A stretch of 64,000 nt of DNA from positions 457,808 to 521,807 of the forward strand of contig RPFO01000130.1 in assembly GCA_009746045.1 (NCBI GenBank). The letters are read 5' to 3'. Origin of the DNA: Mesostigma viride (Eukaryota > Streptophyta > Mesostigmatophyceae > Mesostigmatales > Mesostigmataceae). The stretch's first letter is position 1, and the number at the start of each line of letters is the position of its first letter. The notes under the pieces were generated by a model. The model ran no database searches and was not told the origin of the DNA. It saw only the letters and a program-made list of their open reading frames with translations. Both the position numbers and the translations under genes were made by a program. This document shows positions 6,150 to 26,200 of the stretch, one piece after another.

Positions 6150-6430
6150 TGCGACAGGACAAGCTTCTATTCCTCAAACGTCGCAAGCGGCTCAAGAGGA
6201 CTCCCTACACATTGGACGACGACTTGACATGGCGCAGCTACAACGGCGACGGGAGCTACGGCCGACTACCTCTGGCTCCGGCAGGCAGCGGCAGGGAAGA
6301 AGCCGTTATACTGGAGGTGGGCGGTCATCTATGTCGACCACAAGCCCTGGCAGGCGACCCCATGCAGGTTGTAGCCTAGAATGTATTAAAAACCATATCA
6401 AGTAGACAACCAGCGCAGGCCATATGCCCC
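6150..6430 (+). pseudogene. LINE ORF1 C-terminal fragment and 3' UTR
   Basis: Decayed copy of the end of the ORF1 found at 8400-8550 plus 19,216-19,315. Mixed frames give FLKRRKRLKRTP, LDDDLTWRSYNGDG and, near the end, a PQALAGDP segment matching the HKPWQATP region of the better copy. Several frameshifts make it non-coding. Its 3' UTR is interrupted at 6444 by another LINE and resumes at 6758. Confidence 0.7.
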
Positions 6431-7240: not shown

Positions 7241-8550
7241 ATGAGCAAACGCCCATCGACGCAACGCAGCCTGACGGCTGCGCTCGGCAATGAAAATACA
7301 TCTGCAGCTCCGGCTGCAGCTTTGCCATCAGGGCCGGAAGGCAGTGGTGACACTAGTCGCGCACTGGTGGTCGCCCAGAACCCTCCCGGGCTCTCCTCGC
7401 CCTCTGCATCGCCTGACCCAAAGCGCAGTCGCCCAGGCGAACCTGGCTGGTCTGAGCGTGATTTTGACGTCGATAGGCTCTTTACCACCTTCGACGTCAA
7501 CAGGCCTGCCTTTTTCGACATGCCACCCATCAAGATACTGGAGCTCGTGTTTTACGGGTCACACGCCTCACTGCTGGCCCTGTGCCAGCAACTCCATTCC
7601 AACACCCACTTTTTTCGCAACGGAGTTGACGGCCGGTATTCCCACTGCGTATCAGACCGCGTCGACACCAACCTGGCCGGCTGGTCTCGCCCCCGCCTTC
7701 ACCTCGCAGCTCTCTTTACCCTCACTAAGCGCTCGGCCGAGGACCTTCTGCACTCCGCCCCCATTACCGAATCCACCTTCGTCCACCACCTCCACGCCGC
7801 CCTCTCACAGCACGTGACGCCCATTGCTGCAGATGTGGCGGCAATTGGCGGCACGCTGGCTGCTGAGCTCCCCACCATCCCCACCGCCACCGCCGCCCTC
7901 CTCGCCTCCACCCCCCCCCCCCTCCGCCTCCACCGACTCCATCACCGCCCAGCTCCGCGACATCGACCAGCGTCTTAAGGACAACGCCATTGCTATCGAG
8001 GTTCTGCAGAACACCGCAGGCCTCACCGCCCAGGCGGTGAAGGACATTGCCGCCAAGCCAGCCCCGGCTGGCCTGGCCGGCGATGCTCCTCCCATCACCA
8101 CCTGGGCGGACATGCTTAAGCAACACACCACCTCCACCACCTCCGCCGTCGCAGCCCAGCTTCAACGGCAGACGCTTGACCTCCGCGAGGAGGCCGAGCT
8201 CGCCAAGCGCAGCCTCAACGTCATTGTCAAGAATCTCAAGATGGAGGAAGGTAAGAATTCCGAGAAGCTTGCGCGTGCTTTTGAGAGAGAAATCCTTGAT
8301 CGCATGGGCCTTACTGGTGAGATCGAGCTGGCCGCCCACCGCCTTCCCCGCGCGCGGGGTAAGGCAGGGCCGCCCCCGCTCCTTCTCACCTTTAAGACCC
8401 CGGCGGACAAGATTTCTTTTCTCAGACGCCGCAAGCGGCTCGAGAAGACTCTCTTCATGCACCCTTGATGACGACTTGACCCTGGCGCAGCAACAACGGC
8501 GACGGGAGCTATGGCCGACCTACCTCCAGCTCCGGCAGACCAAGGCGGGG
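7241..8550 (+). pseudogene. LINE ORF1 (L1-type RNA-binding protein), first part
   Basis: Starts MSKRPSTQRSLTAALG. The N-terminal half is proline and alanine rich. The C-terminal half (about 8170-8550) resembles the RNA-binding and C-terminal domains of L1 ORF1 proteins: SLNVIVKNLKMEE, AHRLPRARGKAG, LLTFKTPADKISFLRRRKRL, and a QQRRRELWPTYLQLR end. The reading frame changes at a 12-C run (7911-7922) and again near 8466, where one extra base makes a TGA. The frame is then cut by the gypsy element at 8551 and resumes at 19,216. Homopolymer sequencing error could account for the first shift; the second looks like decay. Confidence 0.7.
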
Positions 8551-9827
8551 TGTCGCGTCTGCGTGCCACAATCTCCGGCGCCACCATGGCGGCTGGCCAC
8601 TCAGCTTAATTTGGTAAAACCCAAATGAGCTGAGCTGATGTGCCTGCCTTAACTGCATGCCCTGTGGGGTGGGCGAGGACCTGTCCCATGATTAAAGAAA
8701 GGAGGGCTCTCAGCCGAGGACAAGGAACTGTCCCTCGTGCCTGAACCACCTTATTGCCTCCCCTGCTATAGAATAATGCTTTCAAAACACACACTTTGCA
8801 CAGTCTGATGATGAAGCCGCACATGCGGAATTTATTGAGAAAGTTAATACAATTACAACACGTTGATAGTCTCAATATCGATGCACTCCATGCTCACGAG
8901 CCCGCAGTTAGGCAGCGCTCCATGACATGCTACCGGCCTTGCTCCCAAGGAAAGGGAGAAACACGAAGGCCACTAACGAGAGACTCGAAGAGACTACACG
9001 CTGCGTGAGAGTCCTCTTCGACTATGAACCAAACCATTCGTCATGCCACACGCATGACACACGCCACACTTGTCAGTCCAGCCAGGAATGCCAAAACTAT
9101 CTTGCTGCCTGAACCATGCGAATAGAAACCGCATTCCAGTTGCCGTCCTGGCTTTCTACCACACATGCCAACAAAAGCAGGAAGGCATCCCGACAAATCT
9201 AAATTGCTACCCTGTTGCCGATCTCATCTCCTAGAGGCTCCGGCATTTCTGTCCCTGGGAATGTCCGACATTGAGTCACGTCCAGCAAGGTCGAAGCATA
9301 ATATCCTTCAGACAATCTGCACGCTCACACCTTGCGTGTGAGTGGCCCAGCAAACATTGCGTCTAATCGTTCCTTTCTAGAAGAAATCCCTTTTTAGGGC
9401 TGCCAGCGATTTCGCATTCATTCCAGCGATCTGGCTCCGCACCGCAAATTGTCCTTTTCCATTTTCTGTCCAGTCCTCATAACGTTGACCCGCTATTCTA
9501 CACCACAAAGACACCTGGCCTGTCAATAGCCTCGGCGCTGTTGAAGTCCAGCAGTCCAGCTTCAGCTCCAGCTGTCCACTAACACGCGTATGATCCTCTC
9601 GACGCTGCACACTTGTGCTGCCGTCCGCTCAAGTCAGTGCTGCGCGCCCAGCTGTGCCTGGCCCGGCGCGCGTGCACGTACACTTTCGTCCGCTCTTATG
9701 CTGCAAGTGCTAGTGTCCCCCCCGGTCACTAGCCTTTGTCGAAAATGCGTAGAAGACAAATTCCTTGCGCACGTCACCGGTCTTGTGCATAGTGGGCGCC
9801 CGGATGACATAGCGCGCGTCCGTGACA
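8551..9827 (-). repeat. 3' LTR of gypsy element (core plus 143-bp terminal segment)
   Basis: Core 8697-9827 matches 18,082-19,215 with about five small differences. The outer 143 bp (8551-8693) is absent from the other LTR but is repeated directly inside the element at 9830-9972. Ends are TG...CA. Confidence 0.85.
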
Positions 9828-9829
9828 GC

Positions 9830-9972
9830 TGTCGCGTCTGCGTGCCACAATCTCCGGCGCCACCATGGCGGCTGGCCACTCAGCTTAATTTGGTAAAACC
9901 CAAATGAGCTGAGCTGATGTGCCTGCCTTAACTGCATGCCCTGTGGGGTGGGCGAGGACCTGTCCCATGATT
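9830..9972 (-). repeat. Second copy of the 143-bp LTR terminal segment
   Basis: Identical or nearly so to 8551-8693. It lies between the polypurine tract and the 3' LTR core. The junction with the core is the perfect palindrome GACAGCTGTC at 9824-9833. Confidence 0.85.
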
Positions 9973-9983
9973 CCCCCCCTCGC
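9971..9983 (-). promoter_or_regulatory. Polypurine tract of the gypsy element
   Basis: The minus strand reads GCGAGGGGGGGAA immediately after the pol stop codon and just upstream of the LTR-related sequence. This is the expected position and composition of the plus-strand primer for reverse transcription. Confidence 0.7.
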
Positions 9984-9998
9984 TGGCGACCGGCCCCA

Positions 9999-12900
9999 TC
10001 ACGAAGACAGCGATCGTACCAAGACAAGGGCAGCGGTGACCGCAGTCAAGCTGCGGGAGGTAAACTGCGCAGCGGTGCACACTGGACAAAACCAATCCCC
10101 CTCCGGAATGCTGGTGACCACGGGCTGCAAGCACTGCATGTGCCAACCACAGTTACACTGATCACACAATAACATGGACTCCGCCTGATCGACCCGGTGA
10201 CAAACCTGACACTGGGCGTCCTTGACTCGGCGAGATGTGTGCGGTTGGAGGTCGTGGACCAAATTGGGCAGTGAGCAGGGACTGAGATTGCTGAGGTTGT
10301 CTGTCGTACGGCTCCCGTCGGCGCCCTCCAAAATTGCCACTCCCGATGGTTTGATAGCCACAATGCGCAAAATGGTGGGCCCCGCCTCCACATCCAAAGT
10401 GTGCTTCAGCTGAGTGCGCAGGAAAACATACTGCCCTGGCCTAAACCGCAGCTGGCGAGCCATGTATGCGCCCCCCCGGCGCTGAGCGTAACGCAGGGAG
10501 TCCCTGTGCTGAGCAATGAACAAGTTGTTCATCGCGATGGGCATGACCTTCTTAAAAGTCTCTGCCCTGGCCAGCACCTCAACCAAAAATTGCTGAGCGT
10601 TGTCGAAGGCCATGGGTTCGGGGTGCGCAACCTGTGCCTCCGTAGGCAAAAGAGGATTACGCCCGAACAGAAGGAAATACGGGGAGAAGGTAGCGAGAGA
10701 CTCCTGGGGAGACATGCGATAACCCATGGCAATCCATGCCAACTCGCGATCCCACCTGGCCGACTCCGGCACCTGCAGGCTCCACTTGCGCAGCGCCTGC
10801 TTGACGGTCTGCACCAATCTCTCAGCCAAACCATTGGCCTGAGGATGCTCCCGAGAAGTGCGACGGTGATCAATAAGACATCCATCCAGCAACTCCTGGA
10901 ACTCACCCCTGAACTCACCACCCTGGTCCGTGACTACCTCCGCGGGAGCCCCAAACCTGGTGATGATGTCTGCAAAATGCTTCGCTGTGGTAGCGGCATG
11001 CTTGTCAGCAATGGGGATCAACTCAACCCATTTGCTAAAGCTCTCCACGCATACCATGACATAGAGGTTGCCGTCAGGGCTCTCCTGAAACGGCCCGCAC
11101 AGATCGACGTGCCAGCGATAAAACAAGCCCTTGATGGGAAGCGACATCAGCTCCTTGGCACCATGATCTGCGCTAAAGTTAGCCTTGGTTCGAGCACACG
11201 GGACACAGCTGGCCACTACCTGGGCCACTGTGTGTCGCATGTTATTCCACCAATAGCTGGTCCGTACGAGGCTGAGCGTGCGATTGCCACCCAAGTGACC
11301 ATACCGCTCGTGGTACGCCTGCACTATAGCAACGCGCTTGTCAGGCGGTGGGACGACCACCCTACGCTTGCCCAACAGCTTGTACAAAACCCCATCTTCC
11401 CAACCATAGGTTGCAGCCCTGTGCTGCACCCTGTTCAACTCCGTCGCCTTCTGAGCAGGAGTCCAATCGACTGGAGTAGGAGTCAAGACAGCACCCTGCA
11501 CTTGCTCCAAAACTCGACCATCTAGCCAGATATCAGCGGTGTAGCAATCAGCAAGAGAGCTACGCGCTAAGAGAGCCTGCACAGCGATCAGCTGCTGCAG
11601 AGAAGGATCAATGTCAAAGGACAGAGACCTACCCTCTTCCATAGCGCACACAGCTTTGGATGGCGTGAATGGCGACGGCCGCACCGGGTCGTCGCTGATG
11701 CCGAAGTCCGCCACAGAGTACTCGACACTGCGCCACCACGCCTCCTCCTCATCGTCGGCCGCATACCCAGCAGCGTTCACAAAGACCACAGAACCCGACG
11801 AGCCCTCGGCACCCATGGCCCGGGCTCCAGTGTGGTCAACAGTGGTAGGCATGGCGTATCGGGATAGCACATCGGCGTTGACATGGTCCTTGCCGGCCCG
11901 ATGCACAATGGTCATGTGGTACTCCTGGATAATCATGGCCCATCGGGCGAGCTTACCCGTCAGGTTGGTGTTGGTCATTAGCCACTGAAGCGGCTGGTGG
12001 TCTGTCACCAGAGTAAACACGCGCCCAACTAAATACGGGCGAAAGTGCTTGATGGCCCACACCACAGCCAGTGCCTCCCCCTCATAGGAAGAATACCGGC
12101 TCTCCGCTGGGTTGTTGCTGCGACTAGCATAAGCAATAACGTGCTCGCGCCCATCACCATCCTTTTGCGCCAAGACCGCACCCAGTCCTACCTTGGACCA
12201 GTCGGTATATAACACAAATGGCAAAGCATAGTCAGGGGCGCGCAGAATCGGGGCCGACGTGAGCTCCTGCTTGATTGTCTCGATGGCGCGTTGCTGTGCG
12301 GGACCCCACGCCCACACGCACCCCTTCTTGAGTAACTCGGTCAAGGGCTTCACCTTGCTGCTGAAGTTCTCAATGTAACCTCGGTAATAGCCAGCCAAAC
12401 CCAAATACGCCCGCACCCCTGAGACATCCGTGGGTACGGCGGCCTGCACAATGGATTCGACCTTGGCGGCATCAGGCGTCCGGCCACCCGGCACAATCTG
12501 ATGACCAAGGAATGAGAGGGTCCGCTGGGCGAACTTGCACTTCTCAGGGTGCAGCCGCATATTATGCTCCTCGAGAGCCAAGCGAACCTGCTCCAAGTGC
12601 GCCAGGTGCTCCTCAAATGTCGCGCTAAAGACGATTACATCATCAATGTAACAAGCGGCGAAAGGAAGACCTGCAAGCACTTTGTCCATAGCTCGTTGGA
12701 AAACAGCACTAGCGTTGCGGTGCCCAAAGGGCATGCGCACCCACTCATACAAATTGCCGCCCCCCCAGAATGCAAGCTTCCGCTGATCCTCCGGCGCAAC
12801 TGCGATCTGATGAAAGCCGCTACGCAGGTCCAGCGAGGACACAAACTTCACATGAGGAGATATCTTATCCAGGACATCATCCACACGTGGCATGGGGTAA

Positions 12901-15900
12901 CGGTCCACGGGTGTGTGTGCATTCAGCAACCGCAGATCGGTGGCCATGCGCATACCCGTCCATGCCCCGGTGATAGCGTCCTTCTTGGGCGCAACGACAA
13001 CGGCAGCGGCATAGCTGGAGGAAGATTGCCTGATGATACCGGCATCCTCTAACTCCTTGCATTGCTCGGCTACAAAATCCAACTCGGCCTGACTCAGGCG
13101 ATGCTGGCGTCGGAACAAAGGAGTGTCAGTGTCCAATGGAACACGCATGGTCCCACCATTGAAACACCCCAGTTCATCACTTGTGAAAGCGAAGGCCCCC
13201 CTTGCAGTGCCTAGCCACTTTAGCATGGCTGAGCGCTGCGCATCAGAAAGGTGTTCGCCAATAGCCCAGGGGTGCGTATCCGCGGGATCACCCACAGCTA
13301 CCGCATGTGCCTCAAGATGCGGCGCCCTAGCCGCATCGTCGTGGAACAAGGAAAAGGCTGCCACGCCTGGTGTGACACCCACCGCCGGAGCCTCGCGTGC
13401 CGCACGGTGTATTACCCGATGCAGCGTGGGCTCGCCGGCCAGCACGGTGCTGGTCAGCAGGGCGGTCATGAGAATGATAGTCCACACCTGTCGCAGACGC
13501 CACCCCCATGCTGATGAAGTCCCCGTCGCTGCAGGGCGCTTCAGTTTGGCTGCGCGCGCCTCAACCTGCTGAGGCGGATTGGCTGGGGACGCCCCCCCAG
13601 ACTGGCGCACGGCAACCGATGCAAGCAGCACATACCCGACCTGCAACACCGACATAGCCTGGCCTATCAAAGACCAGCGCTCACTCTCGAGCACGCCCGG
13701 CAGCGCCGAGGCCCCGACATGAAAACCCATGCTGGCCTCACGAAATTCTGCGGGTGGCTGCACCAACAGACCGGTGGTAGTGTCCCAAACGAGACCCTTA
13801 CCCCGATCACGGTATGCTGTCGACCCTTGGTAACTGACCAGGGTCGGCAGTGCACACATGGGGCTCCCGACCCGGTTGACGCGTGCATACGGTGGGCGAT
13901 CCTCGCTATCCACCTTCTGCGTGACTAGGTGGGAAGGCAATGCTACCTCCGCAGACACACTCGGATGCTGCCTTGCTACGGCCCCCAAGACCGCCTGCAC
14001 ATCGGTCGCACACGCCACGTTGGTCCAATAGGCACGCAAACGATGCGTGAGCCCACCCAGCCCTGCGTTGTCACACACGATGGGCTCCCCCAGGAGTGCC
14101 ACGATTGTAGCCCAGTCCTCCCGCACCGCCTGATGTGGGCTGTCACCCGCCACAACGTTCTCAAACAGATACGCAGGCGGATGGGGCTGACGCGACTGCA
14201 ACAGTCCCACCACACGCAACAGTTCCCAGAACAGCGCGCTACGCGGATCGGCTAGCCCCCGCCCTTGCCCTGCCTGGCTCAGGCCCTGGCACTCCCAACC
14301 CGCAATTACCAAGTCGATGGCATGATGCCTGCGCAACAACTGCTGCACCTGCACCTCACCGATGGCTCGGATATCTTGAGGACATTCCCCAAACGGGTCA
14401 CGCCATGCTGATGGCGGAAACTGCGCGGGATACTCTCGCGACAACACGCCACAGTGACTGAAGTACACCTGACGCGCCTTGTGCGATGGCTCTACCGCGA
14501 TGAGTTTACGGCACACGCCGCCTGCGGCCAAAAAGCCTGCAATGCCCCCTCCGATCCCCGCAAACAGTTCCAACACTACCGCACCCTTGGCAAAATCAGG
14601 GGCCTGCGGTAAGATTGCAGCAGAAAAATTACCTTGGGCCTCCGAGACACCCGGTTGCAGCAAAGTGAGGCCATGGCTGGCCATCTGAGGAATGGTGATG
14701 ACGGCTTCAGTCACCCGCTTGCGCATAGCCAGCTGCCGCGTGGACGTCACAGCATCCAGCGACCACTGCGTGCGCATCTTGGCAATGCTCGCCGTTGGCT
14801 GGGGCAGCACCGTCCGATGCTTGTCCCACGCCGATGAGCCCGCCGCCCGTACCTCCACCATGCTGACCTCCACCACGCCCGCAGCCGCGGAAGGGTTGAG
14901 GCGTGCAGCCCCGGCTGAAGAACTGAAGCATGAGACCGGCACACTGGCCCGCTTCAGGCCAGCCCCATCCCAATCAGGGATGTAAGATGCCTCCTCCGCC
15001 CTATAGTCCACCTGAACCATGGCGCGAGCAAGGACATCCACCCCGAGTAGTGCGGAATATCCACACTTGTTGACCACCAGCGCATACGCGGACACGGTGG
15101 TCATGCTAGAGGCGCGCAACGGATTGAAAATCACGTTGACTTTAACCGCCGTCATAGCGTACGGCTTACTAGCCGGACCCTGCCAACCTGACACAGACAC
15201 GGGGCTTTCCACTAAGCCACCGTTCTCGTAGGTCAGGTTCAGCATGGTGGCCAAGTCCGTGCTGATGACTAGCGGCTGAGCACCGCTATCAAGCTTGACT
15301 GCGCCAACCAACGGACATGTCACCATGTCGCTCCATACATCTCCACAGGCTCCAACTGCTTGGAACGCCATGGACGGCTCACCATTGGGGTATGGAACCA
15401 CCGTGGGAACCTGGGGGACTGCACTAGTGCGCTGCTGGCTACTTGTGCTGACCACTCCCGCTTGCACCACGGGCACTGCGGCTTCTACCGGCTGGCGCCC
15501 GTAGGTGACGGACTCAGAATTGCGCAAGGTGCGCACATCATGCCCATCTGCGAACAACTGGATCTCGGACACAACCGACCCCAGCCACTCAACCCCCTTC
15601 TGCCCGAAGGTGTCGACCACCTGCCGTGCTGAAAACATGGGTACGTCCACAATGAACGGCATTGGGTACACAGGCGCCAATCGCCTACGCTGCTCCAGCC
15701 CAGCAGGGTTCGCATGCTCAAAAGCAGATTGCACCCCAGCCAGCGGCATGGAAAAGGACGCGGGCAACTGCCCGGCAGGCAACATGGGTGCCTGCTGAAA
15801 AGAAAGCGGGCTGCGTGCCTGCTTGCCTTTGGTAGCCTCCGCAGCGTTGATCTCGACGTCACCCGGCATGGGCGCCCAGAATGGGTCCTCCCGGTACACC

Positions 15901-16037
15901 GTCTCGAATTGGTTGGGGGGCGCCGTCGCCTCCTCACCATGCTTGATGGCAGCCACCTGGGCTTCCATCGAGTCGGTCTTGCCCGCCATCTCGGCGAAGT
16001 GGACCGTCTTGATGCCCGCGGCTGGACACTTGTTCAT
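9999..16037 (-). CDS. pol: Pol polyprotein: protease, C5-DNA methyltransferase, RT, RNase H, integrase, PHD
   Basis: 2012 residues from the first Met; the frame is open further upstream and includes a CCHC zinc knuckle (CFLCDKDGHLSREC). Domains in order: aspartic protease with LDSGA near residue 249; C5-cytosine methyltransferase about 480-805; a hydrophobic segment 851-870; reverse transcriptase with YIDD at 1130; RNase H from about 1265 (YTDWSK, EGEALAVVW, TDHQPL, NADVLSR); integrase from about 1565 with an HHCC finger and DDE residues in WHVDLCGPF, VVTDQGGEF and HPQANGLAERL; PHD finger 1943-1987. No internal stop or frameshift in this frame, so the element may be competent. The catalytic sets look intact; activity is inferred. 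The methyltransferase may act on the element's own DNA or at the target, and the PHD finger may guide integration through histone tails. Confidence 0.93.
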   Translation of the reverse strand: MNKCPAAGIKTVHFAEMAGKTDSMEAQVAAIKHGEEATAPPNQFETVYREDPFWAPMPGDVEINAAEATKGKQARSPLSFQQAPMLPAGQLPASFSMPLAGVQSAFEHANPAGLEQRRRLAPVYPMPFIVDVPMFSARQVVDTFGQKGVEWLGSVVSEIQLFADGHDVRTLRNSESVTYGRQPVEAAVPVVQAGVVSTSSQQRTSAVPQVPTVVPYPNGEPSMAFQAVGACGDVWSDMVTCPLVGAVKLDSGAQPLVISTDLATMLNLTYENGGLVESPVSVSGWQGPASKPYAMTAVKVNVIFNPLRASSMTTVSAYALVVNKCGYSALLGVDVLARAMVQVDYRAEEASYIPDWDGAGLKRASVPVSCFSSSAGAARLNPSAAAGVVEVSMVEVRAAGSSAWDKHRTVLPQPTASIAKMRTQWSLDAVTSTRQLAMRKRVTEAVITIPQMASHGLTLLQPGVSEAQGNFSAAILPQAPDFAKGAVVLELFAGIGGGIAGFLAAGGVCRKLIAVEPSHKARQVYFSHCGVLSREYPAQFPPSAWRDPFGECPQDIRAIGEVQVQQLLRRHHAIDLVIAGWECQGLSQAGQGRGLADPRSALFWELLRVVGLLQSRQPHPPAYLFENVVAGDSPHQAVREDWATIVALLGEPIVCDNAGLGGLTHRLRAYWTNVACATDVQAVLGAVARQHPSVSAEVALPSHLVTQKVDSEDRPPYARVNRVGSPMCALPTLVSYQGSTAYRDRGKGLVWDTTTGLLVQPPAEFREASMGFHVGASALPGVLESERWSLIGQAMSVLQVGYVLLASVAVRQSGGASPANPPQQVEARAAKLKRPAATGTSSAWGWRLRQVWTIILMTALLTSTVLAGEPTLHRVIHRAAREAPAVGVTPGVAAFSLFHDDAARAPHLEAHAVAVGDPADTHPWAIGEHLSDAQRSAMLKWLGTARGAFAFTSDELGCFNGGTMRVPLDTDTPLFRRQHRLSQAELDFVAEQCKELEDAGIIRQSSSSYAAAVVVAPKKDAITGAWTGMRMATDLRLLNAHTPVDRYPMPRVDDVLDKISPHVKFVSSLDLRSGFHQIAVAPEDQRKLAFWGGGNLYEWVRMPFGHRNASAVFQRAMDKVLAGLPFAACYIDDVIVFSATFEEHLAHLEQVRLALEEHNMRLHPEKCKFAQRTLSFLGHQIVPGGRTPDAAKVESIVQAAVPTDVSGVRAYLGLAGYYRGYIENFSSKVKPLTELLKKGCVWAWGPAQQRAIETIKQELTSAPILRAPDYALPFVLYTDWSKVGLGAVLAQKDGDGREHVIAYASRSNNPAESRYSSYEGEALAVVWAIKHFRPYLVGRVFTLVTDHQPLQWLMTNTNLTGKLARWAMIIQEYHMTIVHRAGKDHVNADVLSRYAMPTTVDHTGARAMGAEGSSGSVVFVNAAGYAADDEEEAWWRSVEYSVADFGISDDPVRPSPFTPSKAVCAMEEGRSLSFDIDPSLQQLIAVQALLARSSLADCYTADIWLDGRVLEQVQGAVLTPTPVDWTPAQKATELNRVQHRAATYGWEDGVLYKLLGKRRVVVPPPDKRVAIVQAYHERYGHLGGNRTLSLVRTSYWWNNMRHTVAQVVASCVPCARTKANFSADHGAKELMSLPIKGLFYRWHVDLCGPFQESPDGNLYVMVCVESFSKWVELIPIADKHAATTAKHFADIITRFGAPAEVVTDQGGEFRGEFQELLDGCLIDHRRTSREHPQANGLAERLVQTVKQALRKWSLQVPESARWDRELAWIAMGYRMSPQESLATFSPYFLLFGRNPLLPTEAQVAHPEPMAFDNAQQFLVEVLARAETFKKVMPIAMNNLFIAQHRDSLRYAQRRGGAYMARQLRFRPGQYVFLRTQLKHTLDVEAGPTILRIVAIKPSGVAILEGADGSRTTDNLSNLSPCSLPNLVHDLQPHTSRRVKDAQCQVCHRVDQAESMLLCDQCNCGWHMQCLQPVVTSIPEGDWFCPVCTAAQFTSRSLTAVTAALVLVRSLSS
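10062..10214 (-). other. PHD finger at the integrase C-terminus
   Basis: Full Cys4-His-Cys3 pattern between pol residues 1943 and 1987: CQVC, LLCDQC, GWHMQC and WFCPVC. It follows an integrase C-terminal region with a GQYVFLR-type motif. PHD fingers usually read the N-terminal tail of histone H3. The position equals that of the chromodomain in chromoviruses, so a targeting role is a reasonable inference. Confidence 0.88.
13623..14600 (-). other. C5-cytosine DNA methyltransferase domain inside pol
   Basis: About 325 residues with the family motifs in canonical order: motif I VLELFAGIGGG (SAM binding), motif IV GWECQGLSQAG with the catalytic Cys at pol residue 583, motif VI FENV, motif VIII THRLRAYW, motif IX region REASMGF and motif X GQAMSVLQVGY. 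The usual Pro before the catalytic Cys is Glu here. All motifs lie in one uninterrupted frame between the protease and reverse transcriptase, so the domain is part of the element. Cytosine methyltransferases captured by retrotransposons are known from dinoflagellates and a charophyte alga; I cannot place this one among them without a tree. Confidence 0.9.
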
Positions 16038-17806
16038 CAGGTGCCACTTCGTGTCTGCCCCATGCGGCTTCGTGCAGCGGCTTGGACACTCGCGACTAAG
16101 GTGCCCATCCTTGTCGCAAAGGAAGCAGCCCGATTTGCGCGCATCCGTCCTAGTACCCGTCTGTGAGGACGTGCCCCCCCAGCTCGCGTCGGGGCGGCAG
16201 CGTCTTTGTTGCCGCCAGCGGCGTTACCCTGGGTTGCATCATGCGATGAGGCGTTGCGAGACCCCCCTTGGTTCCTGCTAGCACCGTGGCCGCCTTGCGG
16301 GCGCGCTTGTCTTGTGGCAGACGACTCACCCGACTTGGCCTTGGTCAGCGCGTCGACCTTGGCCTGCAGCTCGGCCACCACCGTGCTTACCGAGATCCGG
16401 CCTTGCGCGTGTCGTCGCATCATGGCCCTGACCTCAATGCACAGTGACCGCAATCGCCACGGCTGGCCGTTGGGCGGCGTGGGCAGCTCCATCTCCTTGG
16501 AGCCTAGCGCTTGCAGCCATTTCTGACACGCCAGCTTTTCGGACCAGTCCTCCACTTCGCCGGCGAACTCCATGAGGCGCTCGTAAGATTGCTCCGGGGT
16601 TTCACCCTCGGCTATCTTGAAACTGCGCCACTCACGCTCTGCCTTGATGGTCTCCACCGGGTATTCCTGGCGAAGGAGGCCCCACAGTTCCTCGGCAGGG
16701 TCGACACCATACATGATGTTGTCATAGTCGGGCTGGCCACGCCCGTCGAAGCCGAACCACACGTCCGTGTGACGCGTGTACAGCGAGACCTCTCTCCACT
16801 GCTCCACCAGCCTAGCCACTCGCCTCAGCGTAAGGCCGTGAAAGAAAAAATGCATGTTGTTCATCACAAACTCATGCATTACAGCGCCTTGCGTAGTCAT
16901 GTATTGCAGATCAATCCATGACTTGTACGCGTTGTAGGCCTGCGCCAGCGTGGCCAGATTGCCGGTTGTGGAGAACTTCTCGCGCATGTCCACCCGTGGT
17001 AGGGTGGGCATCTTCGCGCCTTCCGGTATGAGGCGCACCCTTTGCGGGTACTGCACCCCATCGGCATCCTCCGGCGGTCGCTGAGCTGCGCGTCCCTGCG
17101 CCAGCGTGCTTGGTCGTGCTGCCTCCCGTACTCGGAAAGCCAGCGGCGTGGTTATGTCCTCCATGGGCGGAATGCGCCCGATTGGCACACTTGACCACCG
17201 TGCAGTCGACCCGCCGGTCAGCGCCCCACCGCCTCGCCCAAACGGAATTGAGGCCCCGCCTGGCAGCATGCGTCCTGGTGCACCCCTGTGTGGGTCCATC
17301 GCGCGCGCCAGCCCTGCCCCGTTCTCCTCGTGCAATCCGTCTCGCGCTTGATCGAAAGGCAGGCGCCTGGGCGCCAGCGTATACTCGCCCCGTGGCTGAC
17401 CATCCGCCTCACCAAGCAAGTCGTGTTGGGTTAGCGACCCAGCCAAAACCCCCGGTTCCATCGAAGCCCTTCCCGCCGCATTACCTGAGGTTGGCGGCTG
17501 GTCCCGCTCCCTCGGCTCCGCGGCAACACCACTGGGGCCCGGCATCGATGCCTGCCCGTCCCATGGTGTGGACTGCAGATGACGACCCTCTACGGCCACC
17601 AATCTGTCGGTCACTTCCCGCATCTGCAGCGCCAATTGCTGCTGCAACTGTTGCGACTGTTGCTGCATCTGCGCTTGCATCTGCGCGAACAGCGCCACCA
17701 TACTCAGCGGCGCTTCTTGGTCGCGACTCTCACCCACTGCGGGTACGGCGGGAGGAATCCGCCATTCGACCCCGGAGCGGACGTGTGGCATCTGCTCTAT
17801 TTGCAT
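16037..17806 (-). CDS. gag: Gag polyprotein of the gypsy element
   Basis: 589 residues. A Gln-rich coiled-coil segment near residues 38-65 (MQAQMQQQSQQLQQQLALQ) is followed by a long disordered Gly/Pro/Arg region and then a capsid-like region (MNNMHFFFHGLTLRRVARL; EELWGLLRQEYPVET; EREWRSFKIAEGETPEQSYE). The nucleocapsid zinc knuckle is not in this frame but in the pol frame, entered by a -1 shift near a seven-G run around 16,177. Downstream of that run the gag frame is low-complexity and ends at 16,037. Either a programmed shift or a one-base homopolymer error explains this. Confidence 0.85.
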   Translation of the reverse strand: MQIEQMPHVRSGVEWRIPPAVPAVGESRDQEAPLSMVALFAQMQAQMQQQSQQLQQQLALQMREVTDRLVAVEGRHLQSTPWDGQASMPGPSGVAAEPRERDQPPTSGNAAGRASMEPGVLAGSLTQHDLLGEADGQPRGEYTLAPRRLPFDQARDGLHEENGAGLARAMDPHRGAPGRMLPGGASIPFGRGGGALTGGSTARWSSVPIGRIPPMEDITTPLAFRVREAARPSTLAQGRAAQRPPEDADGVQYPQRVRLIPEGAKMPTLPRVDMREKFSTTGNLATLAQAYNAYKSWIDLQYMTTQGAVMHEFVMNNMHFFFHGLTLRRVARLVEQWREVSLYTRHTDVWFGFDGRGQPDYDNIMYGVDPAEELWGLLRQEYPVETIKAEREWRSFKIAEGETPEQSYERLMEFAGEVEDWSEKLACQKWLQALGSKEMELPTPPNGQPWRLRSLCIEVRAMMRRHAQGRISVSTVVAELQAKVDALTKAKSGESSATRQARPQGGHGASRNQGGSRNASSHDATQGNAAGGNKDAAAPTRAGGARPHRRVLGRMRANRAASFATRMGTLVASVQAAARSRMGQTRSGT

Positions 17807-18081
17807 CCGCCATGGCTCGAGTCTGCGCTCGCGTCAGTGGCATGCACCAGCTGACCGATGGGCAAAACAAGAACCAACAAGCCTAGGTTAGCCTGCCAGA
17901 AAAAGACAAGAGCCAGCAAATTCTGGCTAGTTCTATTTTCTTAAAATCTGTCTCAAGACACTTCCTTTACAAACTGTCAGCCAGGCCGTTCCCTGTACTG
18001 CTGATGGTTGATAAACACTAAAGCCAACGTCTTGGCTTCAAACAGAAGGAAGCAGACTACCGGGTAGTCTCTTCGAGTAAC
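17807..18081 (-). other. Gypsy leader between 5' LTR and gag
   Basis: 275 bp of untranslated leader. I looked for a primer-binding site starting TGG next to the LTR and found none I would defend. The sequence beside the LTR instead contains a small hairpin (GACTACC/GGTAGTC). Confidence 0.5.
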
Positions 18082-19215
18082 GAAAGGAGGGCTCTCAGCC
18101 GAGGACAAGGAACTGTCCCTCGTGCCTGATAACCACCTTATTGCCTCCCCTGCTATAGAATAATGCTTTCAAAACACACACTTTGCACAGTCTGATGATG
18201 AAGCCGCACATGCGGAATTTATTGAGAAAGTTAATACAATTACAACACGTTGATAGTCTCAATATCGATGCACTCCATGCTCACGAGCCCGCAGTTAGGC
18301 AGCGCTCCATGACATGCTACCGGCCTTGCTCCCAAGGAAAGGGAGAAACACGAAGGCCACTAACGAGAGACTCGAAGAGACTACACGCTGCGTGAGAGTC
18401 CTCTTCGACTATGAACCAAACCATTCGTCATGCCACACGCATGACACACGCCACACTTGTCAGTCCAGCCAGGAATGCCAAAACTATCTTGCTGCCTGAA
18501 CCATGCGAATAGAAACCGCATTCCAGTTGCCGTCCTGGCTTTCTACCACACATGCCAACAAAAGCAGGAAGGCATCCCGACAAATCTAAATTGCTACCCT
18601 GTTGCCGATCTCATCTCCTAGAGGCTCCGGCATTTCTGTCCCTGGGAATGTCCGACATTGAGTCACGTCCAGCAAGGTCGAAGCATAATATCCTTCAGAC
18701 AATCTGCACGCTCACACCTTGCGTGTGAGTGGCCCAGCAAACATTGCGTCTAATCGTTCCTTTCTAGAAGAAATCCCTTTGTAGGGCTGCCAGCGATTTC
18801 GCATTCATTCCAGCGATCTGGCTCCGCACCGCAAATTGTCCTTTTCCATTTTCTGTCCAGTCCTCATAACGTTGACCCGCTATTCTACACCACAAAGACA
18901 CCTGGCCTGTCAATAGCCTCGGCGCTGTTGAAGTCCAGCAGTCCAGCTTCAGCTCCAGCTGTCCACTAACACGCGTATGATCCTCTCGACGCTGCACACT
19001 TGTGCTGCCGTCCGCTCAAGTCAGTGCTGCGCGCCCAGCTGTGCCTGGCCCGGCGCGCGTGCACGTACACTTTCGTCCGCTCTTATGCTGCAAGTGCTAG
19101 TGTCCCCCCCCGGTCACTAGCCTTTGTCGAAAATGCGTAGAAAACAAATTCCTTGCGCACGTCACCGGTCTTGTGCATAGTGGGCGCCCGGATGACATAG
19201 CTCGCGTCCGTGACA
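18082..19215 (-). repeat. 5' LTR of gypsy element (core only)
   Basis: Matches 8697-9827 almost perfectly but lacks the 143-bp segment that ends the other LTR. Its outer end, GTGACA on the plus strand, abuts the GGGG target duplication. Confidence 0.85.
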
Positions 19216-19315
19216 GGGGCAGCCGGTGTACTGGAAGGGGGCGGCCATCTACGTCGGCCACAAGCCCTGGCAGGCGACCCCCGCGGCCCCAGCGACTCCA
19301 GGCGCCCCAGCTTAG
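19216..19315 (+). pseudogene. LINE ORF1, second part after gypsy insertion
   Basis: Continues the ORF1 interrupted at 8550: QPVYWKGAAIYVGHKPWQ then a short Ala/Pro tail and TAG at 19,313-19,315. Together with 7241-8550 it makes one ORF1. No ORF2 follows. Confidence 0.75.
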
Positions 19316-20266: not shown

Positions 20267-23200
20267 TTAGACATTAAACCGGAAAAGCATCACGTCACCC
20301 TCTGCAACAACGTACTCTTTGCCTTCTAGCCGCAGCTGCAAGGATCAGAAGCATGAAAAAACATTAAGTCACAGAAAAGCCAAAGTCAGCAACCATTTTG
20401 GCTCGTAACAACAAACAAAAACGCACAATTACAAATCGCACAAACATCTTGTTGGAGCCAGCAAGCTCCACTTAAAAGCTGCGTCAAACGAACCTCCGTA
20501 AAGATTGTTAGGGTGTACTGCTGAAGGATTCCAATGAAAAACGAGTGTCAGCATAGCCTTGAAACTTCCTGCAAGGGTTTCACGCATGGACACTGAAGAC
20601 ATTTTGTAATGATGTGCTGTTGCCACACTTGCACAGGTTGCAGCAACCTTAGACAAGAGTAGCGCCATTAATGACCCTGATTTTCAGGCTGCGACATAAA
20701 CATCCTGGCATAATCTCACCTGCCGCCTGGTCTAAGAATTCTGGCTCATACCCTTGTCTAATCATTATGCACAGCCATGTGCACAGCAGGTCCCCTGATG
20801 CCTTTGGCCCATCGCCTGCGAACCCGTCCTGGCATGCACCCGTCCGCAAACCCGTCCTGGCATGCTATCAACCTGCTGGCCGTGTGCCCCACCACACAGG
20901 ACATGGGGTGCTTGCAACCGGCCAGTCATACAGCCACTCGCTAACTAGCATGGGTTCCACAGAGAAAGGGACATCTGTACGCTCTAGTAGGGCTATCATT
21001 ATTCAACAAAACCACCGGTGTGTTGCCAGGTTTGTTGCTCCCTTCACCAACATGACTGCGCGGGCATGCTGGGTGCGCCATGCTGCCCCAGCCATGGGCC
21101 TGTGCACTGCCCGTAAGTCGTTGGTGCATCTATTGGGAATGGCTGGCCTAGCAGCCCAAGTAAGAGTGGACTGCAAGCGCCCTGCTGGCAGCCTAGGGTC
21201 TGGCAGCACGGTTTCCCGTTGTTTCTGGCCCCTGGCTCCGGCGCTGCGCCGGGTCACTATCGGCAACTACGGCGCCAGTTGTTCTCACCCAGCGTCTAGC
21301 TATCGTAAAGGTTCAGAACCCGTGATGCGCGGCAGCACTCTGCGCAGAGCATCTAGCAGGTGGACGCACGGCACGGCTAGCGTAACAGCCAAGCTTATTG
21401 CCTTGAAGACCGACCCACTTGCTTGCTGGGACGAGCGAGATGACCGCGGCACAAAGGGGGAAATACAAGACAAGAGCCCACGGCCACTTGGAATACATCT
21501 ATAATACTCGGTAAGTATTGCTAAGAAATGCATGTAACCACCAGGCGTATTGCTGTTCACAAAAACCAGTCTCTTGTGGTCTCAACCTGGCCATTCCAAA
21601 TAACATCAAGACTTGACTATCCTATTCTTTTACAGTCTGTTGTTGTGTCAATCTGGCCATCCGCCACGTGCATTTCCATTGCCGTGGTTGAAGCCACACC
21701 GATTTACATCCAGGCCCTCCATGCCCACCTCGGCTCCCCCCTGACCTGCCCCTATCGGACAAGGATGCAAGGGGCCTACAGGACAAGGACGCAAGGGGCC
21801 TACAGGACAAGGACGCAAGGGGCCTACAGGACAAGGACACAAGGGGCCTACAGGACAAGGACGCAAGGGGCCTACAGGACAAGGATGCAAGGGGCCTACA
21901 GGACAAGGACGCAAGGAGCCTACAGGACAAGGACGCAAGGGGCCTACAGGACAAGGACGCAAGGGGCCTACAGGACAAGGGTACAAGGGGCCTACAGGAC
22001 AAGGATGCAAGGGGCCTACAGGACAAGGACGCAAGGGGCCTACAGGACAAGGACGCAAGGGGTCTACAGGACAAGGACGCAAGGGGCCTACTGGACAAGG
22101 ATGCAAGGGGCCTACTGGACAAGGATGCAAGGGGCCTACGGGACAAGTACGCAAGGGGCCTACAGGACAAGGACGCAAGGGGCCTACAGGACAAGGACGC
22201 AAGGGGCCTACAGGACAAGGACGCAAGGGGCCTACAGGACAAGGACGCAAGGGGCCTACAGGACAAGGACGCAAGGGGCCTACAGGACAAGGACGCAAGG
22301 GGCCTACAGGACAAGGACGCAAGGGGCCTACAGGACAAGGACGCAAGGGGCCTACAGGACAAGGACGCAAGGGGCCTACAGGACAAGGACGCAAGGGGCC
22401 TACAGGACAAGGACGCAAGGGGCCTACAGGACAAGGACGCAAGGGGCCTACAGGACAAGGACGCAAGGGGCCTACAGGACAAGGACGCAAGGGGCCTACA
22501 GGACAAGGACGCAAGGGGCCTACAGGACAAGGACGCAAGGGGCCTACAGGACAAGGACGCAAGGGGCCTACAGGACAAGGACGCAAGGGGCCTACAGGAC
22601 AAGGACGCAAGGGGCCTACAGGACAAGGACGCAAGGGGCCTACAGGACAAGGACGCAAGGGGTCTACAGGACAAGGATGCAAGGGGCCTACAGGACAAGG
22701 ACGCAAGGGGCCTACAGGACAAGGACGCAAGGGGCCTACAGGACAAGGACGCAAGGGGCCTACTGGACAAGGATGCAAGGGGCCTACAGGACAAGGACAC
22801 AAGGGGTCTACAGGACAAGGATGCAAGGGGCCTACAGGACAAGGATGCAAGGGGTCTACAGGACAAGGACGCAAGGGGCCTACAGGACAAGGACGCAAGG
22901 GGCCTACAGGACAAGGACGCAAGGGGCCTACAGGACAAGGACGCAAGGGGCCTACAGGACAAGGACGCAAGGGGCCTACAGGACAAGGACGCAAGGGGCC
23001 TACAGGACAAGGGCGCAAGGAGCCTGAAGGAAACCCAATGTACCGCTGATCATCTGTACTGTACACACCCGTAGACACATCATAAACACACAGCCGATTT
23101 AGGGTGTAGGTTTATTCACCTTGTAGAGCTGACCACGGGCAGCTAGCCAACAAGTGGCTGACGATATGCTACTTGCTTTGAAGCGTGCAAAAAATACAAC

Positions 23201-26200
23201 ATGCACTCACCAGCCCACTCTCTCGTGCAGCAGCCAGGGATCCAGCCTTGACATAGTCATCATAGGCCACCTGCAGGTGTGGCGAACCCCAACAGGGGCA
23301 GGTGCATGAGCAGAGGGCAGGAGAGCGGCAGGTGCATGAGCAGAGGGGAGGCGATGGAGCACACAAGGAGTACCCCCACATCCACACAAGGAGTGGTACC
23401 CCAACATCCATGCCGCAGCTGCAGCCACTTCGCAACTAAGATATTTGGTGAAGATGGGAAGAGCAACTGCGTGGAGAAATCAGCAACTGTGGTTGCTCAG
23501 AAGGAACGAATGAGCCCACAATCGGATCAAGCGACTTATGAGGCCTGTTGCTTAAAGGGAAAAGGGCAGGAGGGCAGGCCAAGACACCATTGAAGCGATT
23601 CAGTGATGCGCAGGCTCCACGCAACAAACCTGGGTTTTAAAGGGAAGTACAGGAATGCCGGCAAGCTGCTTTCCTTGGACAGCATCCCCCGTGTTCACTC
23701 TGACGTCCTGCTCACCGGCAACAATCCAAACTTAGCCATCACTTGTTGCCCAGCTTGGAGACTTGGACCATCGCGGAAAAGTCGTACTGTCAGATAACAC
23801 AAACCTATTTCCATCACCATGCCAGCATCGAGGCCGCCTGCGAGAAACGCCCAACCAGGTAGGACAGGTACCACTAGATAACCCCGCCAAGAAACAAGTG
23901 CGCAGACGGTATCCATTTCGCCCCTCGCGTCAAAAAGGACCCACGAAAGAAGACGCAACGCGAGTCGCTCACCGTCTCTGCGCGGATGAAGCCGCGCTCA
24001 AAGTCCGTGTGGATGACGCCCGCGGCCTGCGGCGCGGTCATGCCTGCGCGATCCGGTCAAATTACGTGAGGGAAGAGTTGTGAGCGGGGACGAGTTGTGT
24101 GTGATGAGCGTGAGGTGAGGAGCAGGAACTGCCCCAGTGGGAGATGACAATGCACCCCAGATGTTCGAAATGCCCTAGTGAACCACTCTGAGTACGTACT
24201 CTGGGTAGATGCGAGAAAACGACCCTGATGTCCAAGCACCCATGTGGGCCTGGATAAATATAGAAAGCAAAAACTCGCTGGGCAGTGCTACTGCGGCTTG
24301 CAGCCCATGCGACCTTGTCTAATTAACTCCCAAAAAAATGATATCCATAAGATTTGGAATGGTGAACGAGCCTGAGATGAAGCCCATATACAATGCATCG
24401 CATATATGACAGACCTGACCCATAGTGGCCCCCTACCGGCATCGTGGTGGGCTTGCACCGGCATGCATGCATGCTCTGTACCAGAACACAGGGCCACAAT
24501 GTAGATGTGCGTACCCCGCACGCTGCCACCTGGCCACGATGCAACAGGGTTGACGAGAATTCTTTTCTTCTCTATGGGAACTTATGCCAATGTTGTGCCA
24601 CATTGATCCACACACACGAAGTGGTCGAGAGTTTCGTGCGCCTGATCCCCTTCTCACTTCGTCTCCCATCTTAGGGTCGAGGTCGAACAGGCAAGATCAA
24701 CGTCAGAAGTGCCAGCTTGAAACCCTTCCTTTTTCTTCATAAAATTTTTGCCCTACTGTCACCGTCAAGCCCAAATAAGTGTCCGTTCACCAGGTTAGAT
24801 GCTTTGCTGCAAGGGAAAGGGGTCACAAAAAAGGGGTAAACGCATATCTAAAAGGGGATCCTCCTATGCACACGCACCTGCGTGGATGGTCCACGCGCGC
24901 GTCTCCTTTTCCCCCGTCGTGAAGTAGGTGCGCAGGCCCAAAATGTTGTAGGCCGCGCGCACCACGGTGGCCAGGCCCCCCTCGGTCGCACCCAGAGACG
25001 CCAGGAACTCCTTGCGCTCCGCCTCGTCCAGCTCAATCAGCTCCGCCTCCACCTGCATGTGCCCAGGACAAGGGTGTGGTTAGCCATGTTGTGGCATATA
25101 TCAGGACCAGCTCCATCAGCTCCGCCTCCACCTGTTCAGGGTTTAGGGTTTAGGGGATGGTGAGCAACAGTGCGGGTAGGGTATGCGCACACCACTTGGA
25201 CACCACAAGTCCGAGCTGAACCCCCCCCTGCAAACAATACTTAACCTGCCTCCACCTGTCACTGGCCCACACCCCCACCTGCGCGGAACGCTGCCATACG
25301 TTGGACGGCCCACTCACCCCACCTTCGCACAAGAATTCGACATGCGTCATTGACCACCCATCCCACCTGCGCGTAACACTTTCCACAGGTTTCATGTACC
25401 CCGCGACACACACCTGCGCGGACACAACGGCAACGTCGCGCCTGCACTGCTCCGCCACACCTGAGCAGACACTGCTCTCTCTCTACCATGGCCCAAGCCC
25501 CCCACCTGAGCAGACACGACGACGACGTCGCACTTGTCCTGCTCCGCCTTCTTGCGCAGCGCCTGCACAAACTTGTTGCTGGCGGCCTGGTCGGCCAGGT
25601 CCTCCTCCGGTACGTTGGCCGCGTACAGCATGGGCTTGGCTGTCAGCAGGCACAGCGGCTTGATCTGCGGAGCAAGGTAGTCGGGCAGGCAACGTATTGA
25701 TGGAGCAAGATCCAGGCCGTTCCATGACTTATAAAGGGGCAGCACCAATGACACTTGTTTGATCTACGCAAGTATTTTCCTTTTTTAACTTTCAGGCAAG
25801 AGTTCGATTAATTAGGCCTTAGCTGGCATAGCAGATTAGAAGATGTATCTCTGGACCATTGCGGAAGCTGTTTGTCAATGCCCATGGACATGGTGCATTT
25901 TGCTAAGGACCGGAGGTTCTGCAGCAACCTGATAGGCCTGCGCTTGCAAATCCAATCCTGCGCTGGACACGAGGTTCTGCTGCAGCCTGACAGGAGCTCC
26001 TGACTTGTGAAGAGACCACAAAGAGCCACATGCCAACACCAGGGTAGTGCGGCGTTCAGCACCAGAGGCCAGACTAGTGGCACTGCCGTGCAAATATGGC
26101 ACACCTACACTCACGGACAAGCCCTTTGAATGGTCGCGAGCACAATTGAGCAAGCACGCACATCAAGTCCTTCCACCCAACCCAACCATAGCAGCCTTCA

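Follow-up and report, generated by a model that had tools for sequence, protein, structure and literature searches.

The best described relative of the element analysed here is KnitGypsy-Dnmt3 from Klebsormidium nitens, which carries a DNMT3-type DNA methyltransferase (DNMT) in the pol of a Gypsy retrotransposon and has repeats structured as in DIRS elements (de Mendoza et al. 2018, PMC5890265); in the passages covered, that description gives no account of how these repeats arise. The same passages present SymbioDIRS-Dnmt3 and SymbioLINE-Dnmt as further retroelements with a captured DNMT, SymbioDIRS having its repeats in the order A-coding-B-A-B, and retrotransposon-embedded DNMT3 is also mentioned in the passages covered of a 2025 DNMT survey (PMC12344493). 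Here, we describe an element in a 64,000-nucleotide stretch of DNA from Mesostigma viride (hereafter the window; contig C1513:457808-521807 of an assembly comprising 439.9 Mb in 2243 contigs). The element is a Ty3/Gypsy retrotransposon that occupies window positions 8551-19215 on the minus strand and encodes a gag-like open reading frame (ORF) and pol. Its coding machinery is that of a Gypsy element, whereas its integrated form is unlike a standard element with long terminal repeats (LTRs).

With KnitGypsy-Dnmt3, as far as the passages covered describe it, the window element shares the Gypsy domain set, a DNMT3-type domain in pol, an intronless structure and purifying selection. The partial K. 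nitens protein KFL_009030040 has its methyltransferase in front of the reverse transcriptase (RT) and falls into the same methyltransferase and pol clades as the window element, with low support within the methyltransferase clade; the K. nitens repeats are known from their description. On the other hand, KFL_009030040, as far as it extends, is devoid of the PHD finger that is present in the window pol, and methyltransferase motif IV reads PC in KnitGypsy-Dnmt3 as compared to EC in the window. The main text of PMC5890265 does not use the terms PHD, chromodomain, Volvox or chlorophyte. SymbioDIRS-Dnmt3 and SymbioLINE-Dnmt use a tyrosine recombinase or LINE machinery, respectively, according to the same source, in contrast to the DDE integrase of the window element. 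Thus, the element is a new member, and at the same time a variant, of the DNMT-bearing algal Gypsy group. Descriptions of circularly permuted Gypsy insertions or of a pol combining methyltransferase and PHD finger were not found in searches of an open-access library. A review of eukaryotic DNA methylation enzymes by Iyer and colleagues from 2011 may contain a reference to DNMTs of algal retroelements.

Judged from its sequence, the window element is a recently amplified Ty3/Gypsy retrotransposon of M. viride with a DNMT3-type methyltransferase and a C-terminal PHD finger in pol. A first-pass annotation of the window had placed it correctly at 8551..19215, to which we add the minus strand, and had regarded it as young; it had also called for a genome-wide search for copies, and had named absence of the methyltransferase from every other copy as one of the results that would speak against its view. 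The methyltransferase is carried by other copies, since its 1059-bp stretch recurs at no fewer than 40 other places in the genome, all of them 100% identical. This number is a lower bound, as 40 of 316 first-look candidates were scored, and does not include the window's own copy. Together with the near identity of the long repeats described below, these places bear out a young, multi-copy element. When the methyltransferase plus 1.5 kb on each side was compared among 30 copies, 28 aligned to the window across the full 4059 bases, with identities of 99.6-99.95%, and the remaining two over less than this length at 99.9% identity or more. A single open frame spans the 4059 bases in 14 of the 30 copies, and in one further copy, truncated by the end of its contig, the available stretch is open.

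The most unusual feature of the element, which had gone unremarked in the first-pass annotation, is the split layout of its repeats. On the coding strand the order is A-gag-pol-B-GC-A|B. That is, the element starts with TGTC in the upstream A repeat (A1, 18079..19215), and downstream of pol it continues with an internal B repeat (B1, 9830..9972), the dinucleotide GC, a second A repeat of ~1.13 kb (A2, 8694..9827) and a terminal 143-bp B repeat (B2, 8551..8693), which is 100% identical to B1 and has its outer end, ...GACA, at the target site duplication; all of these lie on the minus strand. The 143-bp B is thus found on both sides of A at one end of the element and is absent at the other. B1 and A2 meet in the palindrome GACAGCTGTC (GACA-GC-TGTC, 9824..9833, minus strand), a putative opening site for integrase, and the A2|B2 joint at 8693/8694 would correspond to an end-to-end joint of cDNA. 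A1 and A2 are ~99.5% identical, so that the near identity of the LTRs proposed in the first-pass annotation holds, but the repeats are not ordinary LTRs. The whole is flanked by a matching GGGG at 8547..8550 and 19216..19219. As a separate observation, 61 bp of sequence immediately beyond the right end of the element (19221-19281) recur with 89% identity at 6301-6361, that is 12.9 kb away and to the left of the element.

We compared the end stretches of 34 further copies, giving 35 with the window. Twenty-one copies are long (A-coding-B-GC-A|B), four are short (A-coding-B) and ten were left unclassed. Inserted copies start with TGTC in A and finish with GACA in B, and an exact 4-bp target duplication is present in 15 of the 18 copies with both flanks readable. 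The element thus has the target duplications of 4-6 bp and the TG...CA ends of Ty3/Gypsy elements; in place of identical, complete LTRs at both ends it has A at one end and B-GC-A|B at the other. A tandem or rearranged LTR confined to one locus was ruled out as the source of this layout, since many copies agree on it. The split direct repeats, A-coding-B-A-B, are those of DIRS/PAT elements; membership in that group was ruled out by the DDE integrase, the lack of a recombinase match in the two ORFs and the target duplications.

Which of the repeats form the unit of reverse transcription is indicated by putative priming marks, all on the minus strand. A polypurine tract, GAGGGGGGG (9973..9981), lies directly upstream of B1, which would form the start of the LTR as defined by reverse transcription. 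Immediately after A1 follows a predicted primer-binding site, ACTCGAAGAGACTAC (18064..18078), 15 nt of which are exactly complementary to 18370-18384 and 8983-8997; the former is the predicted self-primer GTAGTCTCTTCGAGT inside A1 (18370..18384) and would represent the 5' end of the RNA. In 154 control segments taken from this element, the longest complement reached 12 nt. Tf1/sushi-type self-primed LTR retrotransposons have the arrangement predicted here, in that the RNA 5' end pairs with a site right behind the 5' repeat; Tf1 copies are bounded by the LTR ends, whereas copies of the window family are bounded inside the LTR. The same marks recur in two further families. The second subfamily of the genome, L080, to which the M. 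viride gene model P0030 is 98.9% identical along all of its 278 aa, has A and B repeats without a blastn match to those of the window at E 1e-3. Here, too, the 15 nt right after A1 are exactly complementary to a site within A (control maximum 10 nt, 204 segments), located at 883 of 1127 in A as compared to 832 of ~1135 in the window family. The third family is represented by a short non-autonomous element at C133:12190-14671 with a 1040-bp A, a 309-bp interior and a 90-bp B; its self-complement measures 14 nt and lies at 485 of 1040 in A (control maximum 11 nt). A G-rich purine run directly precedes B1 in all three families. Complementarity to the predicted RNA 5' end, the hallmark of Tf1-type self-priming, is thus seen at the level of sequence in three families, and the fold of the leader RNA (z -1.2) was uninformative. 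Because the minus- and plus-strand priming marks bracket B-GC-A, we infer that B-GC-A rather than A-B is the cDNA unit in three families with mostly dissimilar repeats. The B repeats of the window and third families share nearly all of their last 17 bases, and the repeats of these two families are thus related to some extent.

The two joints of the repeats behave differently. The B|A joint is identical in all 14 copies in which B1 could be seen followed by A2, and the same ten bases are present in L080 and in the third family. The A2|B2 joint reads CTTT|AATC in 18 of the 21 long copies; the other three have an added G, a loss of three bases and a substitution, respectively, the added G being the base that precedes B1 in the polypurine tract. 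Across a 209-base stretch including this joint, the 21 long copies differ from one reference copy at ten places, three of them within the five positions at the joint and seven elsewhere (binomial p 0.0014). DDE integrases use a CA at DNA ends, and the predicted cDNA ends, AATC... and ...CTTT, have none. Cleavage after the CA on both strands of the palindrome would leave 2-nt 5' overhangs and recessed CA ends, as in usual 3' processing.

Two copies were found to have a B upstream of A1. One is a composite insertion on contig C133 with the order GGGG-A_v-309 bp-purine run-B_v-GC-A_v|B-GC-A-coding-B-GC-A|B_v-GGGG, where v denotes the third family. Its window-family part starts at the first base of B and stops at the last base of A, which are the predicted ends of the linear cDNA; the window-family repeats lie at 14672-15951 and ~24119-25401, and the polypurine tract and an identical methyltransferase stretch are present. 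The two A_v differ by two bases and the two B_v by none. The simplest reading is that two cDNAs were joined end to end and then integrated in a single event. The other copy, on C111, is a head-to-tail tandem, coding-B-GC-A-coding, which recombination could also generate.

Taken together, the layout is probably best explained by integration from an end-joined, presumably circular cDNA that integrase opens at the internal palindrome, and we hold this explanation with reasonable confidence. According to this scheme, the RNA would start ~830 bases into A and prime itself as in Tf1, and reverse transcription would yield a linear cDNA, B-A-coding-B-A, whose ends have no CA. Such cDNAs would become joined end to end, with themselves or with the cDNA of a partner, to give a circle or concatemer. 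The DDE integrase would then cut this joined molecule open at the palindrome inside the 5' repeat, producing recessed CA-OH ends with 2-nt overhangs, and insert it. An inserted copy would hence be a circular permutation of the cDNA, because the joined DNA would be opened at an internal site. Short copies could arise from one-repeat circles or from later recombination between the B repeats. We lean slightly towards a wider version, in which a circle-junction route of integration is used by an entire clade of green algal Gypsy elements, that is with a palindromic site in each LTR, prior joining of cDNAs, also with those of partners, and opening there by the DDE integrase. Integrases of PFV (PMC1180852) and HIV-1 (PMC1905944) cleave palindromic two-LTR circle junctions, according to the passages covered. 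Linear DNA is the accepted precursor of retroviral integration, the two-LTR circle having been considered in the 1980s and dropped (PMC11054761, in the passages covered). There, the palindrome is made by joining of LTR ends, whereas the window family encodes it inside the LTR and its genomic copies end there. The passages covered of the paper on the Troyka element (PMC12440569) contain nothing on permuted copies.

The pol ORF (9999..16037, minus strand) encodes 2012 amino acids without an internal stop, as the first-pass annotation had stated, and its ATG overlaps the TGA of the gag-like ORF (16037..17806, minus strand; 589 amino acids) by one base (TGATG). No Pfam match was obtained for the gag-like ORF. 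In pol, on the minus strand throughout, a protease-like region (residues 225-350, 14988..15365) is followed by the DNMT3-type C5 methyltransferase (residues 478-830, 13548..14606; PF00145), RT (12483..13085; PF00078, RVT_1, E 1.6e-27), RNase H (11838..12320; PF17917/PF17919), the integrase with its H2C2 motif and DDE core (residues 1555-1850, 10488..11375; PF17921, Integrase_H2C2, and rve) and the PHD finger (residues 1943-1987, 10077..10211; PF00628, E 1e-8). The domain set of the first-pass annotation is thereby confirmed by Pfam for methyltransferase, RT, RNase H, integrase and PHD finger, but not for the protease. Window pol has no Pfam protease match, and this assignment comes from homologues, since Asp_protease_2 was matched in 7 of 28 aligned homologous proteins; D250 and G252 of the region are invariant in seven aligned sequences. 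Among solved structures, the RT profile matches Ty3 best. The integrase residues D1645, D1704 and E1739 are invariant in seven aligned pols, with profile matches in the PDB to PFV integrase. The order RT-RNase H-DDE integrase is that of Ty3/Gypsy elements (Metaviridae), and a tyrosine recombinase is not among the Pfam matches of the two ORFs.

Pfam DNA_methylase is matched at pol residues 488-628 (E 9e-11), covering model positions 3-111 of 324. An AlphaFold2 model of the domain, METHYLTRANSFERASE, built from 40 sequences, has a mean pLDDT of 93.2, and the best 50 of 172 Foldseek matches obtained with it (E <=0.001) are all DNMT3A/B/C entries. Likewise, the profile of the methyltransferase set matches DNMT3A at 2e-25. 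The window sequence on its own matches solved structures weakly, the best being plant DRM at 6e-5, followed by HaeIII and HhaI. Going by profile and fold matches, the predicted domain is full length and DNMT3-like, so that the complete C5-cytosine methyltransferase noted in the first-pass annotation is upheld by the model. Between window and L080 the domain is 65% identical (dN 0.28; dS ~2.8, saturated), giving a dN/dS near 0.1 that points to purifying selection, and RT and integrase are 80% identical. Scans of viral contigs returned 12 loci, at each of which every match lies inside the methyltransferase. As a side observation, P0017 (2046-2084) and P0112 (1738-1770), which belong to a subgroup with the order RT-RNase H-methyltransferase-integrase-PHD, have an extra C-terminal stretch with a DPFAGSGT motif and weak matches to D12 (N6-adenine) methyltransferases (E ~0.003, below the Pfam cut-off); perhaps this subgroup encodes two methyltransferases in one pol.

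The closest relatives of the PHD finger among solved structures are BAZ2B, Lid, CHD4 and BAZ2A. Across 132 sequences, its zinc ligands show 94-100% conservation. PHD fingers that read H3K4me3 usually have a Trp two residues before the His. Because a Gly replaces this Trp and in view of the top structural matches, the finger is expected to read the unmodified H3 tail, as it resembles such readers.

Several other explanations for the repeat layout were weighed. In a DIRS/PAT-like scheme, the RNA would run from A1 into B2, A2|B2 would be copied from the template, B1-A2 would restore both ends on a circle and the DDE integrase would insert this circle. The order of repeats is indeed that of the DIRS split direct repeats, a comparison made for KnitGypsy-Dnmt3 and SymbioDIRS in the passages covered of PMC5890265, and the scheme would also account for the absence of a mirror form of the long copies. 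Nevertheless we consider it unlikely, as it gives no reason why a polypurine tract abuts B1 and a primer site abuts A1, why differences cluster at A|B beside an unvaried B|A, or why the composite holds B-A-coding-B-A with exact ends. That the composite and the C111 tandem stem from homologous recombination or misassembly and are uninformative on integration, the layout arising in some other way, is likewise an improbable account. Unequal recombination could make the tandem, many copies lie on short contigs, and B_v and B end nearly alike, the repeats of the two partners thus being not wholly different. However, the joints of the composite coincide exactly with the first base of B and with the final base of A, positions at which the families differ; blastn at 1e-10 did not match the window A to the partner stretch, and the composite as a whole has a single GGGG duplication at its flanks. 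Rearrangement of the 5' repeat of an ordinary LTR retrotransposon subsequent to its insertion would be compatible with the repeat annotation of the window locus alone, but the layout recurs at many loci with target duplications that differ, and two further families share the arrangement, which contradicts this idea and leaves it hardly any credence.

A different kind of proposal, which is compatible with integration from end-joined cDNA, was made in the first-pass annotation. It holds that the methyltransferase methylates the new copy and that the PHD finger guides insertion towards marked chromatin. Both domains are recurrent in the family, the methyltransferase appears to be under purifying selection, and the methyltransferases of SymbioDIRS methylate CG in yeast according to the passages covered of PMC5890265. 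These observations stand against others. The window has Glu in place of the Pro that precedes the catalytic Cys in motif IV of DNMT3 enzymes (E582-C583, 14289..14294, minus strand; GWECQ, with ECQ instead of PCQ), which may abolish activity. Of 127 family sequences, Glu occupies position 582 in 84 and Pro in 28, with at least nine changes between the two on the methyltransferase tree, and Cys 583 is retained in 113 of 126. Motifs IV and VI are lacking in the rows printed for a 13-member group of this tree, which includes proteins of C. reinhardtii (P0078), Tetrabaena, Pleodorina and Astrephomene; the volvocine relatives P0060, P0061, P0078, P0090 and their kin have lost both motifs while the domain persists in frame, which suggests either a non-catalytic role or slow decay. 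Moreover, CpG is not depleted in the element (observed/expected 0.85 versus 0.84 in the rest of the window), giving no sign of methylation-driven loss, though copies so young would show little of it. The KnitGypsy methyltransferase yielded no methylation in yeast, a result its authors regard as inconclusive (PMC5890265, in the passages covered), and the PHD finger resembles readers of unmodified H3 rather than a demonstrated methyl reader. We therefore regard self-methylation coupled to targeted insertion as possible and hold it tentatively, at somewhat below even. If we were to guess from domain type, the cDNA or a fresh insertion of the element itself would be the most likely target of the methyltransferase, and the PHD finger probably tethers the integrase to histone H3.

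Besides the motif IV Glu, the motif-less group and the CpG ratio, further points weigh against our interpretation. Ten of the 35 copies resist classification, their ends being missing or shifted, and 3 of the 18 copies with both flanks readable have no exact 4-bp duplication. The C598 copy shares both flanks with the window and probably represents the same insertion; the C887 and C488 copies share their right flank and perhaps do so as well. The composite is a single case on one 40-kb contig that is possibly misassembled; of the coding part enclosed by its repeats, the reading covered the methyltransferase. A frame break interrupts the 4 kb around the methyltransferase in 15 of 30 copies; because 11 of these 15 have an identical longest frame, one break was probably inherited, and some breaks may be assembly errors. 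Finally, random opening of a closed two-repeat circle should generate the mirror form, A|B-GC-A-coding-B, in half of the long copies, but it was absent from all 24 copies whose ends permit this to be judged (21 long ones and three short ones with both flanks); the remaining short copy, on C563, has no readable 5' end, a renewed search for it having given no match. Opening would thus have to be asymmetric and always occur at the site of the 5' repeat. We can only guess at the reason: this site may be the only duplex one while the 3' repeat is being filled in, or integrase may pick the palindrome nearest to the fresh joint (143 versus ~1130 bp).

Homologue searches returned 27 proteins with the methyltransferase region, 7 with the methyltransferase domain alone and 223 with the integrase-PHD region, 120 of the latter matches being listed. 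According to profiles built from the family, 117 of 151 proteins have both methyltransferase and PHD finger, in some cases only in part; the 151 include the window pol and exclude gag, and as the searches used these same domains, such counts are not frequencies. The order RT-RNase H-methyltransferase-integrase-PHD is seen in 86 of the 151 and methyltransferase-RT-RNase H-integrase-PHD in 12, the window included. Ten of the 117 have an organism name, and all are from green algae (three from Tetrabaena, three from Haematococcus, and one each from Pleodorina, Astrephomene, C. reinhardtii and C. eustigma). The predicted methyltransferase-PHD fusion thus recurs in green algae and is not unique to the window element. 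Green algal pols such as Haematococcus QJQ45_013313 and C. reinhardtii CHLRE_09g398141v5, the latter with a decayed methyltransferase, share the methyltransferase family and the integrase-PHD module with the window element; in pols of the QJQ45_013313 type the methyltransferase lies between RNase H and integrase, in the window before RT. At the fewest, its position changed once on the pol tree (113 proteins) and twice on the methyltransferase tree (129), as compared to at least 11 and 13 changes, respectively, in 200 label shuffles (both trees FastTree, rooted at the midpoint for drawing). Since the two positions form separate groups, methyltransferase and pol were inherited together, and the two positions would reflect either a single relocation or the early capture of related domains on two occasions. 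The pol tree includes 16 pols labelled as having no well-covered methyltransferase; 11 of them form one clade of short proteins, which may simply start downstream of this domain.

Elsewhere in the window, positions 26464-34756 contain a 7.5-kb minisatellite in which a 28-bp unit is repeated ~260 times and then a 41-bp unit ~19 times; more than one of its frames stays open for 1000-1600 codons. At 21757-23025, ~53 copies of a 24-bp unit lie within an open frame of 499 amino acids, whose Pfam match to Fibrinogen_BP is probably due to its repetitiveness. A 736-amino-acid open frame on the plus strand at 51218-53428 has an RT domain (E 7e-11) and represents another retroelement. Rfam and tRNA scans of the window gave no matches.

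The textbook scheme for retroviruses and LTR retrotransposons has them integrate from linear cDNA with processed ends. If the proposed route holds, these elements would provide a natural case of the circle-junction integration that was proposed and then set aside for retroviruses, and the element's own methyltransferase would possibly mark the joined DNA intermediate. Permuted copies, an unvaried internal palindrome and a variable end joint make a route via circles or concatemers directly testable. The layout also calls for caution with LTR annotation tools that assume identical terminal LTRs. The Glu-for-Pro exchange in motif IV, which most of this DNMT3-related family has in common, and the decay of motifs in volvocine relatives that keep the domain, raise the question of which role the captured methyltransferase plays. 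Integration by this route would, moreover, explain how a Gypsy element can come to resemble a DIRS element.

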